A stretch of DNA of 64,000 bases from NCBI RefSeq assembly GCF_900113305.1, contig NZ_FOOW01000005.1:1-64000 (forward strand). The letters are read 5' to 3'. Positions 7,230 through 47,745 of this stretch are shown in pieces. Each line of letters opens with the position of its first letter. Within the stretch, counting starts at the first letter, position 1. The position numbers were made by a program, and so were the translations under genes. Origin of the DNA: Prevotella sp. KH2C16. GTDB lineage: Bacteria; Bacteroidota; Bacteroidia; Bacteroidales; Bacteroidaceae. A model generated the notes under the pieces. It was not told where the DNA came from. It saw nothing but the letters and a program-made list of their open reading frames with translations, and ran no database searches.

Positions 7230-8081
7230 ATGATACTTATAGCAGATAGCGGCAGCACCAAGACCGACTGGGCATTGATCGGCGAAGACAATTCCGTGGC
7301 ATATTATAAAACGAAGGGAATTAATCCGCTCTTCCTGTCATTTGAAGATATCAGGAAGGAAATATGCTCTCTTCAGCACGAGCTTCCGGTCTTGCGGATC
7401 CCGCTGCCAGTCTATTTTTACGGAGCCGGCTGCACGGCAGACAAGGCTCCCCAGATGGCGCGGATGCTGCAAGAGGCCTTCCGCTTTCCAGTAGAGTGGC
7501 AGGAAATCCATGTCGATACCGACTTGATGGCAGCGGCAAGGGCACTTTTGGGAAATGCCAGAGGCATTGCCTGCATTCTGGGGACGGGGTCGAATTCTTG
7601 TCTCTATGACGGAGAGAAAATAGTAATGAACACTCCTCCGCTGGGTTTCATTTTAGGCGATGAGGGGAGTGGAGCCTCGCTGGGAAAGCACTTTCTCAAT
7701 GGCATCTTCAAGGGATGGCTGCCAGAAAATATGCGTGAGGAATTCTTGGCGGAATTCAAAATCACCTATCCACAGCTTATCGAGCGCGTCTATCGCCAGC
7801 CATATCCCAATCGTTTTCTTGCAAGCATTGTTCCCTTTATTTCCAAAAACCTTGAAATTAATTCTGTAAAACAGATGATAATAAGAGATTTTACAGATTT
7901 TTTTAGATTAAATATTCAACAATATCATCAGCCGGAACTTTCCATAGGTTTTGTGGGCGGAGTTGCCTATTGCTTCGAGCCATTGTTAAGAGAAGTTGCG
8001 CAATCAGAAGGTTTTACAGTAAGCACGATTTTAAAATCCCCCATAGAGGGACTTGCCAAGTATCATTCTTCCGCATTATAG
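7230..8081 (+). CDS. BadF/BadG/BcrA/BcrD-type ATPase, probable N-acetylglucosamine kinase
   Basis: 283 residues of the ASKHA (actin-like) kinase fold. The phosphate-1 motif MILIADSGSTKTDWALI is at the very N-terminus, the phosphate-2 region is ILGTGSNSCLYDG, and GFILGDEGSGASLGK is the conserved signature of this family. Bacteroidota proteins of this length are usually annotated N-acetylglucosamine or N-acetylmuramic acid kinase, acting in amino-sugar or cell-wall recycling. Substrate is inferred from the family, not visible in the sequence. It stands alone between the divergent mscS operon and the capsule cluster. Start chosen because the glycine-rich motif begins at residue 6. Confidence 0.8.
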   Translation: MILIADSGSTKTDWALIGEDNSVAYYKTKGINPLFLSFEDIRKEICSLQHELPVLRIPLPVYFYGAGCTADKAPQMARMLQEAFRFPVEWQEIHVDTDLMAAARALLGNARGIACILGTGSNSCLYDGEKIVMNTPPLGFILGDEGSGASLGKHFLNGIFKGWLPENMREEFLAEFKITYPQLIERVYRQPYPNRFLASIVPFISKNLEINSVKQMIIRDFTDFFRLNIQQYHQPELSIGFVGGVAYCFEPLLREVAQSEGFTVSTILKSPIEGLAKYHSSAL

Positions 8082-8095
8082 GCATAGTCTTAACC

Positions 8096-8205
8096 TGTTG
8101 TCAACGGTTGGTACTTCGAGTTTCAGCCATTGGAGCTCTTGTTTTCTGCTACTGAAACTCGGAGTTTCAGCCGTTGAAACACTCTGTTTCAGTTACAGAA
8201 ACCTT
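8096..8205. repeat. Tandem array of five 22-bp imperfect palindromes (arm type GTTTCA)
   Basis: Units start at 8096, 8118, 8140, 8162 and 8184. In each, bases 3-8 can pair with bases 14-19 around a 5-base centre; the clearest are 8162-8183 (GTTTCA-GCCGT-TGAAAC) and 8184-8205 (GTTTC...GAAAC). Unit 8118 pairs fully if G-U is allowed; units 8096 and 8140 are weaker. Units 8118 and 8162 are near copies (12 of the first 13 bases). A perfect inverted repeat CTGAAACTC-G-GAGTTTCAG spans 8152-8170. The array lies between the kinase stop and the capsule promoter, so it may also act as a 3' end for the kinase transcript. Confidence 0.75.
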
Positions 8206-32241: not shown

Positions 32242-32246
32242 CATCG

Positions 32247-32315
32247 TGTTTTTCATGGTATTAGATTATTAAGGTTAAGAAAAGATTGGTTGTCGTGAGA
32301 CAATCAATTTTTTTA
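32247..32315 (+). ncRNA. Candidate small RNA of about 70 nt
   Basis: Defined by the consensus promoter at 32210-32241 and the intrinsic terminator at 32285-32314, with no open reading frame of useful length between. It could be a free small RNA or a terminated leader. No known RNA family is recognised. Confidence 0.4.
32285..32314 (+). terminator. Intrinsic terminator of the candidate small RNA
   Basis: ATTGGTTGTC (32285-32294), GTGA loop, GACAATCAAT (32299-32308), then T6: ten pairs including one G-U. Confidence 0.8.
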
Positions 32316-32499
32316 TTATGTGTTCTTGGCCTGTCTTTATGAAAGGTGTTAAGAACATCCTTTTGATGGTTATAGATGACATTGGGAGCTGTTAAGATGA
32401 CTTAGATATTTTGCAGCCTATCCATTCTGGATCTTCCTTGTTTTGTATGACTTATGAAAAAATAATCTAAAAAAGCTTTTTATTCACAGCCTTTTTCCG

Positions 32500-38609: not shown

Positions 38610-38648
38610 AAAAAAGGCGGGTAACTATGAAAGTTATCCGCCTTTTTT
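38610..38648 (+). terminator. Strong terminator of the TonB receptor gene
   Basis: AAAAAAGGCGGGTAACT (38610-38626) pairs with AGTTATCCGCCTTTTTT (38632-38648), 17 positions with one G-T. It ends 2 bases before the -7 box of the cupin gene. Confidence 0.88.
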
Positions 38649-38650
38649 GG

Positions 38651-38658
38651 TATCTTTG
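38651..38658 (+). promoter_or_regulatory. -7 element of the cupin gene, abutting a terminator
   Basis: TATCTTTG; ATG at 38689. The expected -33 position falls within the loop of the preceding terminator and is not TTTG. Confidence 0.5.
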
Positions 38659-38688
38659 CGTGAACGAAATTATTTAGCTGGAGGCGTT

Positions 38689-39021
38689 ATGATTATTGAT
38701 TTTGATAAGATTCCGGAACTGCATCAGGTTGGTTTCAAGGGAGGCAAGGGCCTTCTTGATACTCGTAATTATACTGATGACAAGGTAAAGATTATGTATT
38801 CCACTTTGCGGCCTGGAGCTTCTACGGGTCTGCATAGCCATGAAGAAAACTGTGAGGTTATCTTTGTCGTTAGCGGAGAGCTGACTTTCCATTACGACGG
38901 GGTGGTGGAGGTAGCCCGTGTGGGGCAGGTGCACTACTGTCCGACGGGGCATTCCCATTATATGGAGAACCTTACCGACCATGATGCGGTTTACTTTGCC
39001 ATAGTGCCCGAACACCATTGA
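38689..39021 (+). CDS. Small cupin-domain protein
   Basis: 110 residues, one conserved beta-barrel cupin. The metal-binding motif 1 is HSHEENCEVIFVVSGE (His, His, Glu) and motif 2 ends PTGHSHYMENL. Single-domain cupins bind a metal and act as isomerases, dioxygenases or sensors; no substrate can be assigned. The ATG at 38689 is preceded by GGAGG (38679-38683 region), a good ribosome site; an in-frame TTG upstream lies in the promoter. Convergent with the helicase gene, with a palindrome array between. Confidence 0.85.
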   Translation: MIIDFDKIPELHQVGFKGGKGLLDTRNYTDDKVKIMYSTLRPGASTGLHSHEENCEVIFVVSGELTFHYDGVVEVARVGQVHYCPTGHSHYMENLTDHDAVYFAIVPEHH

Positions 39022-39058
39022 GCATTCCGAGGAGTGCTCTCCGCCATTTTTATTTGCC

Positions 39059-39142
39059 GCGTGTAATCGTATTACACATGGCGTGTAATCGTGTTACAAG
39101 CAGCGTGTAACGCCATTACACACGGCTTGTAATAACGCCATG
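39059..39142. repeat. Tandem array of 22-bp imperfect palindromes (arm type GTGTAA)
   Basis: Three full units (39059-39080, 39081-39102, 39103-39124) and a decayed fourth (39125-39142). In each full unit bases 3-8 (GTGTAA) pair with bases 14-19 (TTACAC, or TTACAA in unit 2) around a 5-base centre. Same period, arm length and centre as the array at 8096-8205 but different arm sequence. It lies between two convergent genes (cupin and helicase), neither of which has another obvious terminator here. Confidence 0.8.
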
Positions 39143-39158: not shown

Positions 39159-40907
39159 TCAGGAGGTGGAAGACTTGCGTAGTCTTTTCAGCTTCCGCTT
39201 GGCTTCGGGGATGTCCGGATATAATTCCAGGGCCTTCTCATAGTTCTTGATAGCGGCTTCTTGGAAGTCTTCCTTCTCGCAGTCTCGGCCCATCTGGACA
39301 TATTCCACGGCCAGCCGTTTCAGGAAATCCTCTTTCTTCCGAGCCTCAGCCTTGAGTTTTCTGATTTCTTCTTTCTGCCGGTTGATGATATTCAGCTTCC
39401 TCCGGAGAAGCCTCTTTACTTCCGGCTTCTCTATGTCATATCGGCTGTGAATGGCCAGGAAAAAACTGTCGAGTGCTCCCTGCATGTCGCCTCGGTTGAA
39501 AGCCGCCATGGCATCAAAATATTCTTTGTCGGCCTTGCTTTGCTGCAAGGCAAGGGATATCATGTTCCTGTTGTTGTAGTTGCGGGCAAAGTTCCGTACT
39601 TCTGCCTTTACGAATACATCCTCGCGGCGGATGGGTTCCTTGAGGCTTATGCCGTCTAATGATGTGGAGCGCGATAGCGCTACATAGGTCTGGCCGCCGG
39701 CAAAGACGCCTCCCGTGAAGTCTATCTTCACTTTATTGAAGGTCAGTCCCTGGCTTTTGTGCACGGTTATCGCCCATGCGAGCCGCAAGGGAAACTGCGT
39801 ATAGGTGCCGATTGCCTGTTCTTCTATTTTCTGCTCTTTTTCATTGAATGTGTATTTCACATTCTCCCAGAGTTCCCGTTCCACATCGCAGTCGGTTCCG
39901 TCTTCCGTGCGGACATAGATAATCCCGTCTTCTTCATCCCCGAAGCCAATGATGGTGCCTAGCGTGCCGTTTACCCATCGTTTCTCCTTGTCATTGCGGA
40001 TGAAGAGTATTTGTGCGCCGGTTTTCAGTACCAGTTCCTGAGGTGTAGGCAGACTGCTTTCCGGGAATTCTCCCTCGATGACGCCATGGAATATTGTGGG
40101 CTCACCGGGTAGTTCTCCTAATTTTTTCTCGTTGATATAGTCTACGGTGTCCCTGCGAGTAGAAAGAGTAATTGCCAGTTCGGATCCGTCATTCTCCAGC
40201 ACTGTTCCCACATGCCGGTTCAGCATATCCAAATCTGTTGTCGCCACCTTGGAAGTTCGTATATGGTCGAGAATCTCGATAAAAACAGGGTCTGACTGGC
40301 GATATACCTTAGTCAGCTCAATGCTCACGAGCTGCATTTGACGGAAGACCTTGGCATCGAAAAAGAACGATGATGCATAAAATGGTTGTAGGAGCTGTCG
40401 GTCTTCTTCCTTAAGTACAGGCTCAAGCTGGTAGATGTCGCCCACCAATAAGAGCTGCTTGCCGCCAAAGGGCTCCCGCATGTTGCGGCTGTAAATTCGC
40501 AAGACTTTATCAATGAAGTCGATGATATCAGCACGAACCATACTGATTTCATCGATGATGATGAGTTCTACCTCTCTCAACAGCTTGCGCTTTTCCGCAT
40601 TATATTTTAAGGTCTCTCTTATGTTTCGGGCACTATAGCGGCTGTCGTTTGGGAGCAGGGGATGGAAAGGTAGCTTGAAGAAGCTGTGCAGTGTGGCTCC
40701 GCCAGCATTGATTGCGGCTATCCCGGTAGGTGCCAGAATCACATGTTTCTTTTTGGTTGTAGCCGCAATATAGCGCAGGAAGGTTGACTTACCCGTCCCT
40801 GCCTTTCCTGTCAGGAAAAGAGAGCGACGGGTAAATTCCAATATTTGGAGCGCATTCTGCAGTTCCGGGTTGTTTAAATCAATGTTTTCTGCACTGATAT
40901 TATCCAC
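39159..40907 (-). CDS. PIF1/RecD-like DNA helicase with C-terminal TPR-like region
   Basis: 582 residues. Superfamily 1B helicase: Walker A GKAGTGKST at 34-42, Walker B LIIIDEIS (~114-121), LLVGDIYQLEP, and C-terminal motif VI region AITVHKSQGLTFNKV with YVALSRSTSL. After the helicase core (~to 430) is a highly charged helical tail with a TPR-like repeat (KNYEKALELYPDIPEAKRKL). PIF1-like proteins unwind DNA and RNA-DNA structures 5' to 3'. It is last in the minus-strand run, 16 bases after the pbp1A stop. Function in genome maintenance is inferred from the family. Confidence 0.87.
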   Translation of the reverse strand: MDNISAENIDLNNPELQNALQILEFTRRSLFLTGKAGTGKSTFLRYIAATTKKKHVILAPTGIAAINAGGATLHSFFKLPFHPLLPNDSRYSARNIRETLKYNAEKRKLLREVELIIIDEISMVRADIIDFIDKVLRIYSRNMREPFGGKQLLLVGDIYQLEPVLKEEDRQLLQPFYASSFFFDAKVFRQMQLVSIELTKVYRQSDPVFIEILDHIRTSKVATTDLDMLNRHVGTVLENDGSELAITLSTRRDTVDYINEKKLGELPGEPTIFHGVIEGEFPESSLPTPQELVLKTGAQILFIRNDKEKRWVNGTLGTIIGFGDEEDGIIYVRTEDGTDCDVERELWENVKYTFNEKEQKIEEQAIGTYTQFPLRLAWAITVHKSQGLTFNKVKIDFTGGVFAGGQTYVALSRSTSLDGISLKEPIRREDVFVKAEVRNFARNYNNRNMISLALQQSKADKEYFDAMAAFNRGDMQGALDSFFLAIHSRYDIEKPEVKRLLRRKLNIINRQKEEIRKLKAEARKKEDFLKRLAVEYVQMGRDCEKEDFQEAAIKNYEKALELYPDIPEAKRKLKRLRKSSTS

Positions 40908-46567: not shown

Positions 46568-46616
46568 TCTCTTATTTTCTGTTTTTTTGTAGTTCAAATC
46601 TGTTGCTTTTGTAATT

Positions 46617-46697
46617 AGCGGCCTTTTACATTCCTTTTAGCGGCTTCCGACATTGCTTTAAGCCGTCTTTTAGGAGGCTTTTTGCCGCCTTTTACTT
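46617..46697. repeat. Dispersed GC-rich/T-tract repeat, copy B
   Basis: In the gap between lpxD and lpxC-fabZ: GCGGCCTTTTA, CCTTTTAGCGGCTTCCG, CTTTAAGCCG, TCTTTTAGGAGG and GCCGCCTTTTAC follow one another with the T-tracts on one strand. Shares GCGGCTTCCG and the CTTTTA + CCG/CGG pattern with copies A and C. Confidence 0.6.
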
Positions 46698-46710: not shown

Positions 46711-47745
46711 TTACTTCTGCTTTTTCAGTTCCTCAATCTCTTTCTGAAGCTCGTTGAGCTGTTTATACATGTCTGGTAATCTGCGGAATACGGCCTGAGA
46801 CTTAAAGTAGTTTTTAGGCTCAAACGGAGGAGTGCCGATAAGTGTCTGGTTTCCCTTGAGATTTCCTGGAACACCTGATTGGGCACCTAAGAAGACCTTG
46901 TCCCCAATCTCGATGTGCCCGGCAATGCCAACTTGTCCGCCAAACATACACCATTTTCCAACCTTGGTTGAACCGGCAATGCCGACTTGAGCACTCATAA
47001 CCGTGTTTTCGCCGATATCTGTGTTATGGGCGATTTGTACAAGGTTGTCAAGCTTGACTCCCTTACGGACATATGTAGATCCCATTGTGGATCGGTCTAT
47101 GCAAGTGTTGGCACCGATTTCAACATTGTCTTCAATGGTGACGATACCAATCTGTGGAATTTTATCGTAATCTTCCCCGTTAGGGGCAAAGCCAAAGCCG
47201 TCGGCTCCAATAACGCTCCCGGAATGGACAATCACATTGTTTCTAAGGATGCAGTCGTGATAAATGCTGGCATTGGGATAGATAATACAATTCTCTCCAA
47301 TCTTTACGCCTTCCATAATTGTGGCATGGGGATATACCTGTGTGCCGTTCCCTATTTCAGCTCCATCGCCGATGTATGCAAATGCTCCGATATATACATC
47401 CTTTCCAATTTTGGCTTTGGGGGAGATAAATGCCAAAGAATCTACTCCCTGTTTTTTGGGTTTCATGCTCTCATAAAGTTGCAAGAGCTTAGCGACACAA
47501 TCGCGAGCATTCTTTACCCTGATGAGGGTTGGCTTAACGGGGAGCTCAATTTCAATCAGCTCATCAACAAGGACAATAGAGGACTCCGTATTCTTAAGGT
47601 AATGGGCATATTTGCCATTAGCGAGGAATGAAATCGCACCTTTCTTGCCTTCTTCTATCTTCGTGAATGTATTTATAGAGGCATTTTCATCGCCTATTAT
47701 CTCGCCTTGCACAAACTGGGCTATCTGTTTTGCTGAAAATTCCAT
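46711..47745 (-). CDS. lpxD: UDP-3-O-(3-hydroxyacyl)glucosamine N-acyltransferase
   Basis: 344 residues from the ATG at 47743-47745; a longer frame to 47784 would run through the -7 box. N-terminal uridine-binding domain ([17 protein letters not shown]), hexapeptide beta-helix with catalytic His in [20 protein letters not shown] and [18 protein letters not shown], and a C-terminal coiled helix ([20 protein letters not shown]). It adds the second hydroxyacyl chain, at the N-2 position, after LpxC. It precedes lpxC-fabZ, lpxA and miaA in the operon. Confidence 0.95.

Follow-up and report, generated by a model that had tools for sequence, protein, structure and literature searches.

Arrays of inverted arms on a constant 11-bp step form a large class of intergenic elements in Prevotellaceae

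In a window of 64,000 nucleotides from Prevotella sp. KH2C16 (assembly GCF_900113305.1, contig NZ_FOOW01000005.1, positions 1 to 64,000 of the forward strand), the gap between convergent cupin and PIF1-like helicase genes holds a short array of six-letter arms, called here the 39 kb array (Table 1). Its clear arms start at 39061, 39072, 39083, 39094, 39105, 39116 and 39127, preceded by a decayed arm, TTATTT, at 39050, and the underlying repeat is a step of 11 bp with alternating orientation. Cut into 17-bp units around a GCCGY-type linker, the array consists of one decayed and three clear units, the count already given in an earlier description made from the letters alone (hereafter the sequence-only reading), with the decayed unit being the first in this register. 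As that reading also held, a second array near 8 kb has the same 22-bp geometry, and it has the same 11-bp step. Its arms had been called unrelated to those at 39 kb; the words do differ, but GTGTAA and GTTTCA have four of six letters in common. Both arrays were confirmed, but they are not the only ones in the window: a third in the same 11-bp register overlaps a tandem repeat finder row (46615-46672, period 22) and lies directly 3' of a minus-strand open reading frame ending at 46711. We find here that such arrays are one large genome-wide class of Prevotellaceae intergenic elements.

Table 1. The arrays of the window and the genes flanking the 39 kb array
Feature	Position	Strand	Description
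39 kb array	39050..39132	.	Four 22-bp units, first decayed; TTACAM/KTGTAA arms every 11 bp
Clear alternating arms of the 39 kb array	39061..39132	.	Seven arms: GTGTAA TTACAC GTGTAA TTACAA GTGTAA TTACAC TTGTAA
Cupin-domain gene, upstream of the 39 kb array	38647..39021	+	Cupin_2, E 4.4e-16
PIF1-like helicase gene, convergent with the cupin gene	39159..40907	-	PIF1, E 1.1e-28; ends at 39159
GTTTCA/TGAAAC (8 kb) array	8120..8202	.	Four units, first decayed; 11-bp step; 3' of gene ending at 8081
Third array	46623..46694	.	CTTTTA arms every 11 bp, GCCGY-type linkers; read by eye

The spacing is what sets the arrays apart. When the window was scanned for three consecutive arms at half-periods of 7 to 24, seven positions were found at 11, all within the 39 kb and 8 kb arrays, and the other half-periods gave a single stray match each at 8, 13 and 19. 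A score of at least 22/24 was reached at 7 positions in the real window and at 3 across all 200 dinucleotide shuffles. The same step dominates the genome (3.22 Mb in 58 contigs, 99.8% complete): when four alternating arms in a row were required, whatever their word, 36 arrays were found at step 11 in 460 kb and 27 in a further 400 kb, whereas the other steps between 7 and 20 gave 0 or 1 array per sample. The stretches were picked partly around known arrays, which inflates the array density without affecting how the steps compare. Searched by word, with two mismatches allowed, the three-arm GTGTAA pattern matched 96 times on the forward and 98 times on the reverse strand of the genome, whereas its reversed control had no match on either; the GTTTCA pattern matched 43 and 45 times and its control 3 and 0 times, one array yielding several matches in these counts. 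In 100 kb of E. coli K-12, no array was detected at any step scanned. Nothing was found in favour of chance or an assembly artefact, and the shuffles, the other half-periods, the sister species described below and the E. coli control rule out both, leaving that explanation a negligible probability.

All arrays share one layout, in which a unit of 22 bp is composed of an arm (6), linker A (5), the mirrored arm (6) and linker B (5). Among 65 arrays of the KH2C16 genome, 39 have three units, 16 have four, nine have two and one has five. At least four arm families, TTACAM, TTACCA, GTTTCA and CTTTTA, use this layout in the one genome, and each main family recurs at many loci. A fifth arm word, of the CAAAATCGGCG/ATTTTG type (CAAAAT/ATTTTG), was also seen at step 11 (L126:6243, L137:10783 and L225:17646). 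Linker A reads RCNGY in the 105 TTACAM units, with C in 103 and G in 103 of them, and RYNRY in the 58 GTTTCA units; by eye, many arrays are flanked by another GCCGY-like word in register. Units of different families can stand together in one 22-bp register. Eight such mosaics were listed, of which five are clear (two in KH2C16, three in its sister species), such as L217:15836, where TTACCA units are followed by TTACAM units, and L266:1861, where one TTACAA unit precedes three GTTTCA units; the other three (L223:16982 and two sister rows labelled g-c) are doubtful because the CTTTTA match used is loose. In the TTACAM arrays of the two species, TTACAA is the leftmost arm in 43/65 and TTGTAA the rightmost arm in 40/65; therefore, the arrays tend to an overall dyad.

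The top-scoring named relative of the helicase is in the sister species, Prevotella sp. oral taxon 376 F0043 (93% identity over the best segment, with records of KH2C16 itself possibly excluded from the comparison). Both main families occur in F0043, where the joint pattern gave 79 and 59 matches against 0 and 1 for the control, and a scan of 582 kb found 44 arrays at step 11, one of them counted twice (L044 overlaps L276), against 0 at other steps. For 24 of the 63 arrays of KH2C16, both flanks were present in the sister stretches, and all 24 have a sister array at that place, including the 39 kb and 8 kb arrays of the window. Nearly all of these stretches were chosen for holding arrays, and 24/24 is therefore no gauge of loss elsewhere; one of the 24 loci, of the CTTTTA family, was recognised by eye only. 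In 23 scored orthologous pairs, the arms are identical at 709/762 letters (93%) and the linkers at 335/520 (64%), totals that include one pair (pair 42, 16/30 arm letters) comparing two different neighbouring arrays. In 272 non-orthologous comparisons, restricted to array pairs whose arms are identical at 80% or more (a filter not applied to the orthologous pairs), arm letters agree at 92% and linker letters at 61%. Since orthologous linkers are hardly more alike than non-orthologous ones, they have nearly lost their common origin, while the arms and the place were kept.

The arms themselves can nevertheless change at a fixed place. At L133:1517, KH2C16 has TTACCA arms where the sister (L268) has TTACAM; at L136:19613, the change is partial; and at the pair 8 locus, a sister TTACAA unit stands where KH2C16 has CGGGAAGCCGCATTCCG, which looks like a unit with other arms. 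The sequence-only reading had proposed that a mechanism makes or uses such arrays locus by locus. The part that stands is that arms may differ at one locus between sister species and that families are mixed in register. The part not supported as worded is that arrays are made afresh at each locus, given that the main families recur at many loci and that a sister array was present at each of the 24 loci compared, mostly in stretches chosen for arrays. Array length is less stable than place, with a difference of 0 in 11 of the scored pairs, of 22 bp in 8, and of 11, 33 or 44 bp in 4. Such differences in steps of 11 or 22 bp, seen in 12/23 pairs, would suit neutral tandem repeats that grew from chance palindromes through slippage and template switching. 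However, a neutral origin would not lead one to expect that step 11 stands out, that arms are conserved while linkers drift, that arm words recur at many loci, or that the set size is three or four units, and we consider it very unlikely.

Beyond the sister species, the step is kept while the words change. Eighty named Prevotellaceae loci (1.49 Mb) hold 24 clusters at step 11 and 0 to 8 at other steps. Within these loci (L044-L123), alternating arms at step 7 account for 8 clusters. Genus mates (394 kb) have 11 arrays at step 11 and at most 2 at any other, where 5 of the 20 stretches were chosen for matches and two of the 11 arrays (L240 and L245) duplicate DNA already present among the named loci (L064 and L096); a further genome, G024 (400 kb, 2 of 20 stretches chosen for matches), has 4 at step 11 and at most 1 elsewhere. 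The arm words of these relatives include TTGCAC, GGGTAA/TTACCC, TTCCCA, CTTCCA, TAAAAG and more, and another genome (G028) holds CAAAG-armed repeats (L238:17520). Thus, the claim that one architecture carries different arm sequences holds genome-wide and across relatives; the two arrays first noted are neither the only ones nor absent from the nearest relative compared, which is a sister species rather than a strain. Within 400 bp 3' of the helicase gene, five of 102 loci (the 80 named and 22 others, some of them the same DNA) reach the threshold: the sister (TTACAM, +60), two metagenome-assembled genomes with TTGCAC arms (L062, +27; L065, +60) and two more with another arm word (L084 and L087, both at +331). 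When two arm patterns were counted in 100 genomes of the genus, KH2C16 included, adjacent TTAC...GTAA units were found in 16 and GTTTC...GAAAC units, with one mismatch, in 24, together 37; the reversed-pattern control for GTTTC/GAAAC was nonzero in 5/100 genomes and, given the CAAAG-armed repeats of G028, may hit real arrays. Two genomes are rich in GTTTC/GAAAC unit pairs (G083 with 145 and G122 with 121 matches per strand), and among the G122 matches listed the arms and linkers are nearly identical, unlike those in KH2C16. Longer arrays also occur: a TTACCA array at G100:C4:833353-833545 has about nine units by the listed matches and exceeds the sampled arrays of KH2C16, and Prevotella conceptionensis (L057:1929-2121) has a long tandem array of period about 22 bp with TTGTA/TACAA arms. 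In 196 kb from other Bacteroidales families (12 stretches), no step-11 array was found, a sample too small to set a limit.

Sequence is what commonly defines an intergenic palindromic repeat. In the present class, the geometry is constant and the sequence changes, and sequence-based repeat searches would therefore split the class or miss it. Bacterial interspersed mosaic elements (BIMEs) are clusters of repetitive extragenic palindromic (REP) elements. REP elements are palindromes tagged with GTAG and CGTC (PMC3733652), and the arrays resemble REPs and BIMEs as short intergenic palindromes with many copies and several families per genome; they differ in keeping a strict period of 22 bp over what are mostly three or four palindromes of 17 bp, in mixing families within arrays, and in showing no tyrosine transposase match and no GTAG/CGTC tag. 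The tag is absent from the unit and linker-B letter counts of TTACAM and GTTTCA, and the outer flanks were checked by eye. The arrays are intergenic and many-copy, as repeats driven by a REP-associated tyrosine transposase (RAYT) would be, but PF01797 (Y1_Tnp/RAYT) had 0 matches in the KH2C16 genome, as compared with matches in 5/14 named control genomes, and RAYT-driven REPs were rejected as an identification.

The wider possibility of a REP-like mobile or selfish palindromic repeat, spread and homogenised by an enzyme acting on hairpins, accounts for a mostly intergenic, many-copy element whose arm families are common to loci and differ between genomes, and near-identical units such as those among the listed G122 matches would fit it as well. 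A mobile origin is nonetheless made less likely by the lack of a Y1_Tnp match in an assembly 99.8% complete, and it sits poorly with the 24 sister loci compared, all of which keep the array in a sample chosen for arrays, and with linkers that carry no sign of recent copying; overall, we regard it as improbable.

Several other known elements were considered. BrickBuilt of Porphyromonas gingivalis is described as a miniature inverted-repeat transposable element whose 23-nt direct repeats are enclosed by a leader, a tail and small ends that are inverted repeats (PMC4596501). It is likewise a Bacteroidales element, intergenic and built of a tandem unit of similar length (23 nt), whereas the present arrays have 22-bp units, arms alternating at 11 bp and arm words that change between genomes; in the flanks of 32 KH2C16 arrays inspected by eye, no common long leader or tail was seen, save the frequent GCCGY-like word in register. 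PINSR of Prevotella intermedia, a 188-bp incomplete sequence without terminal inverted repeats (PMC4755523), is also a highly copied intergenic repeat in Prevotella, but is not described in the accessible text as an array of constant geometry; it is set apart by that description, not by sequence comparison. Identity with either PINSR or BrickBuilt was rejected on their published descriptions, to the extent accessible. Palindromic candidate RNAs reported from Bacteroidetes of human microbiomes are 80-132 bp long and fold on both strands (PMC8040213), and the arrays are like them in size range and in folding on both strands; no alternating 11-bp layout is mentioned in the part of that paper accessible, which is a distinction by description only. 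A clustered regularly interspaced short palindromic repeats (CRISPR) array is ruled out by the 5-nt linkers and inverted arms, with no search for cas genes made. In the open-access literature, with subscription journals mostly outside the search, no description of 11-bp alternating arms with swappable words was found. The sequence-only reading had allowed that the two arrays might derive from different well-known repeat families, but neither Rfam, Y1_Tnp nor the open-access literature gave a match. We file the class among the intergenic palindromic repeats, apart from REP.

The arrays favour the 3' ends of genes. With genes taken from simple open-reading-frame calls and gaps of at least 110 bp counted, arrays are found in 24/55 convergent, 24/118 tandem and 7/70 divergent gaps, an odds ratio of 3.9 for convergent gaps against the rest (p 8e-5); 55/63 KH2C16 arrays lie in called gaps and 8/63 in none. 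The median distance from an array to a called 3' end is about 76 bp (72 values, 56 of them at most 126 bp); for 5' ends (38 values), it is about 183 bp. Intrinsic (Rho-independent) terminators were rejected as an identification. No terminator signal (GC-rich stem and T run) is present inside the 39 kb array, and terminator-like signals in the two species do not differ clearly between gene ends with an array (18/91) and those without (90/346, p 0.27).

We propose that the arrays are rows of half-sites for a sequence-specific factor and may serve as a boundary, a road-block or a chromosome-organising site, a reading to which we give a probability of roughly 0.4. The arm word is largely conserved, is common to many loci, and differs between families and species while the spacing is kept, and it would therefore be read by a sequence-specific factor, one half-site per turn. 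To count arm changes, 301 units from the two species and two families were taken, selected without regard to the sixth arm letter and with up to two changes permitted in each arm. At least one of the ten outer letters is altered in 8/111 TTACA/TGTAA and 17/66 GTTTC/GAAAC units of KH2C16, and in 13/98 and 4/26, respectively, of the sister; most of the changes are one-sided. One half-site would be presented about every helical turn in alternating orientation, the simplest candidate reader being a DNA-binding protein dimer, three or four copies of which might line up along an array. Placed at the end of a gene, a protein row of this kind could form a road-block or boundary where two convergent transcription units meet, or could help to organise the chromosome, and the arm families and species differences may stem from paralogous or rapidly evolving forms of the factor whose dimer spacing is unchanged.

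The spacing and the arm constraint are compatible with an operator row for a candidate DNA-binding protein. BldC is reportedly a protein that binds cooperatively to direct repeats, and tandem operator rows of this kind are similar to the arrays in that evenly spaced half-sites fit a row of protein molecules. The arrays depart from them in number (dozens of loci), in their preference for the 3' ends of genes, in their alternating orientation, and in using several words with one spacing. The GTTTCA/TGAAAC arms presumably resemble the parS half-sites of ParB; their spacing is different, and the remaining arm words have no such likeness. We also put forward, as a more speculative and rather unlikely extension, that the arrays are family-wide punctuation of gene ends, with a fast-evolving recognition factor co-evolving with them and the word being swapped between genomes and unit by unit while the spacing is kept. 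If the arms are half-sites, they would provide a natural series of arm words at constant spacing with which to find the factor and follow its change of specificity, and they would reveal one means by which these bacteria might mark where genes end.

The strongest competitor to half-sites for a factor is that the arrays act as RNA or single-stranded hairpins. As RNA, they would form tandem hairpins at both convergent 3' ends, protecting mRNA or supporting factor-aided termination without an intrinsic U-tract, which we judge a serious though doubtful possibility; one long nested hairpin formed by a whole array was considered as well. Several observations weigh against rows of protein half-sites. 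The predicted RNA folding of the 39 kb and 8 kb arrays beats that of shuffles on both strands (z -3.4, -3.7, -6.8 and -4.7), and the location of arrays 3' of genes, at the short distances given above, suits RNA hairpins as well. Across the five outer arm pairs of the 301 units, six paired double changes were counted, TTACCA and TTACTA units among them; two come from TTACCA units, which make up an arm family in their own right, and two from the doubtful g-c sister arrays. These slightly weaken the argument from a conserved arm word. The innermost pair of TTACAM arms avoids Watson-Crick partners, which were found in 22/105 units against 49 expected in KH2C16 (p 5e-5) and in 24/85 against 37 in the sister (p 0.002), statistics that treat units as independent, possibly wrongly. 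This avoidance suits an open hairpin loop, or avoidance of a perfect palindrome, better than it suits independent half-sites. In addition, the arms of the third array of the window are mostly in direct orientation, and 63/100 genomes of the genus have neither of the two arm patterns tested, these two words being the only ones counted.

On the other side, an RNA function does not readily explain why arm words are common to many loci, nor why arm changes are one-sided in 59 cells and paired in six (a further three are unpaired double changes), nor why terminator-like signals are neither clearly commoner nor clearly rarer at gene ends with arrays and are lacking in the 39 kb array. At E-values up to 10, the Rfam matches at the 39 kb array are sub-threshold and to unrelated families only. 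Avoidance of Watson-Crick partners at the linker ends is uneven between families and species. Pairs in linker A of GTTTCA units number 15/58 against 29.1 expected in KH2C16 (p 4e-4) and 9/22 against 11.9 in the sister (p 0.18); for linker A of TTACAM units, the figures are 50/105 against 62.3 and 36/85 against 45.4, and for linker B, 19/71 against 31.8 and 23/56 against 23.6. The sixth arm letter and linker B of GTTTCA units were tested as well, and no avoidance was seen in them.

Elsewhere in the window, the gathering-threshold scan against Rfam, which gave no match at the arrays, has its sole match at 32246-32317, where it identifies a member of the Bacteroidetes FopS paralogous small RNA family (RF04319, 77.6 bits).
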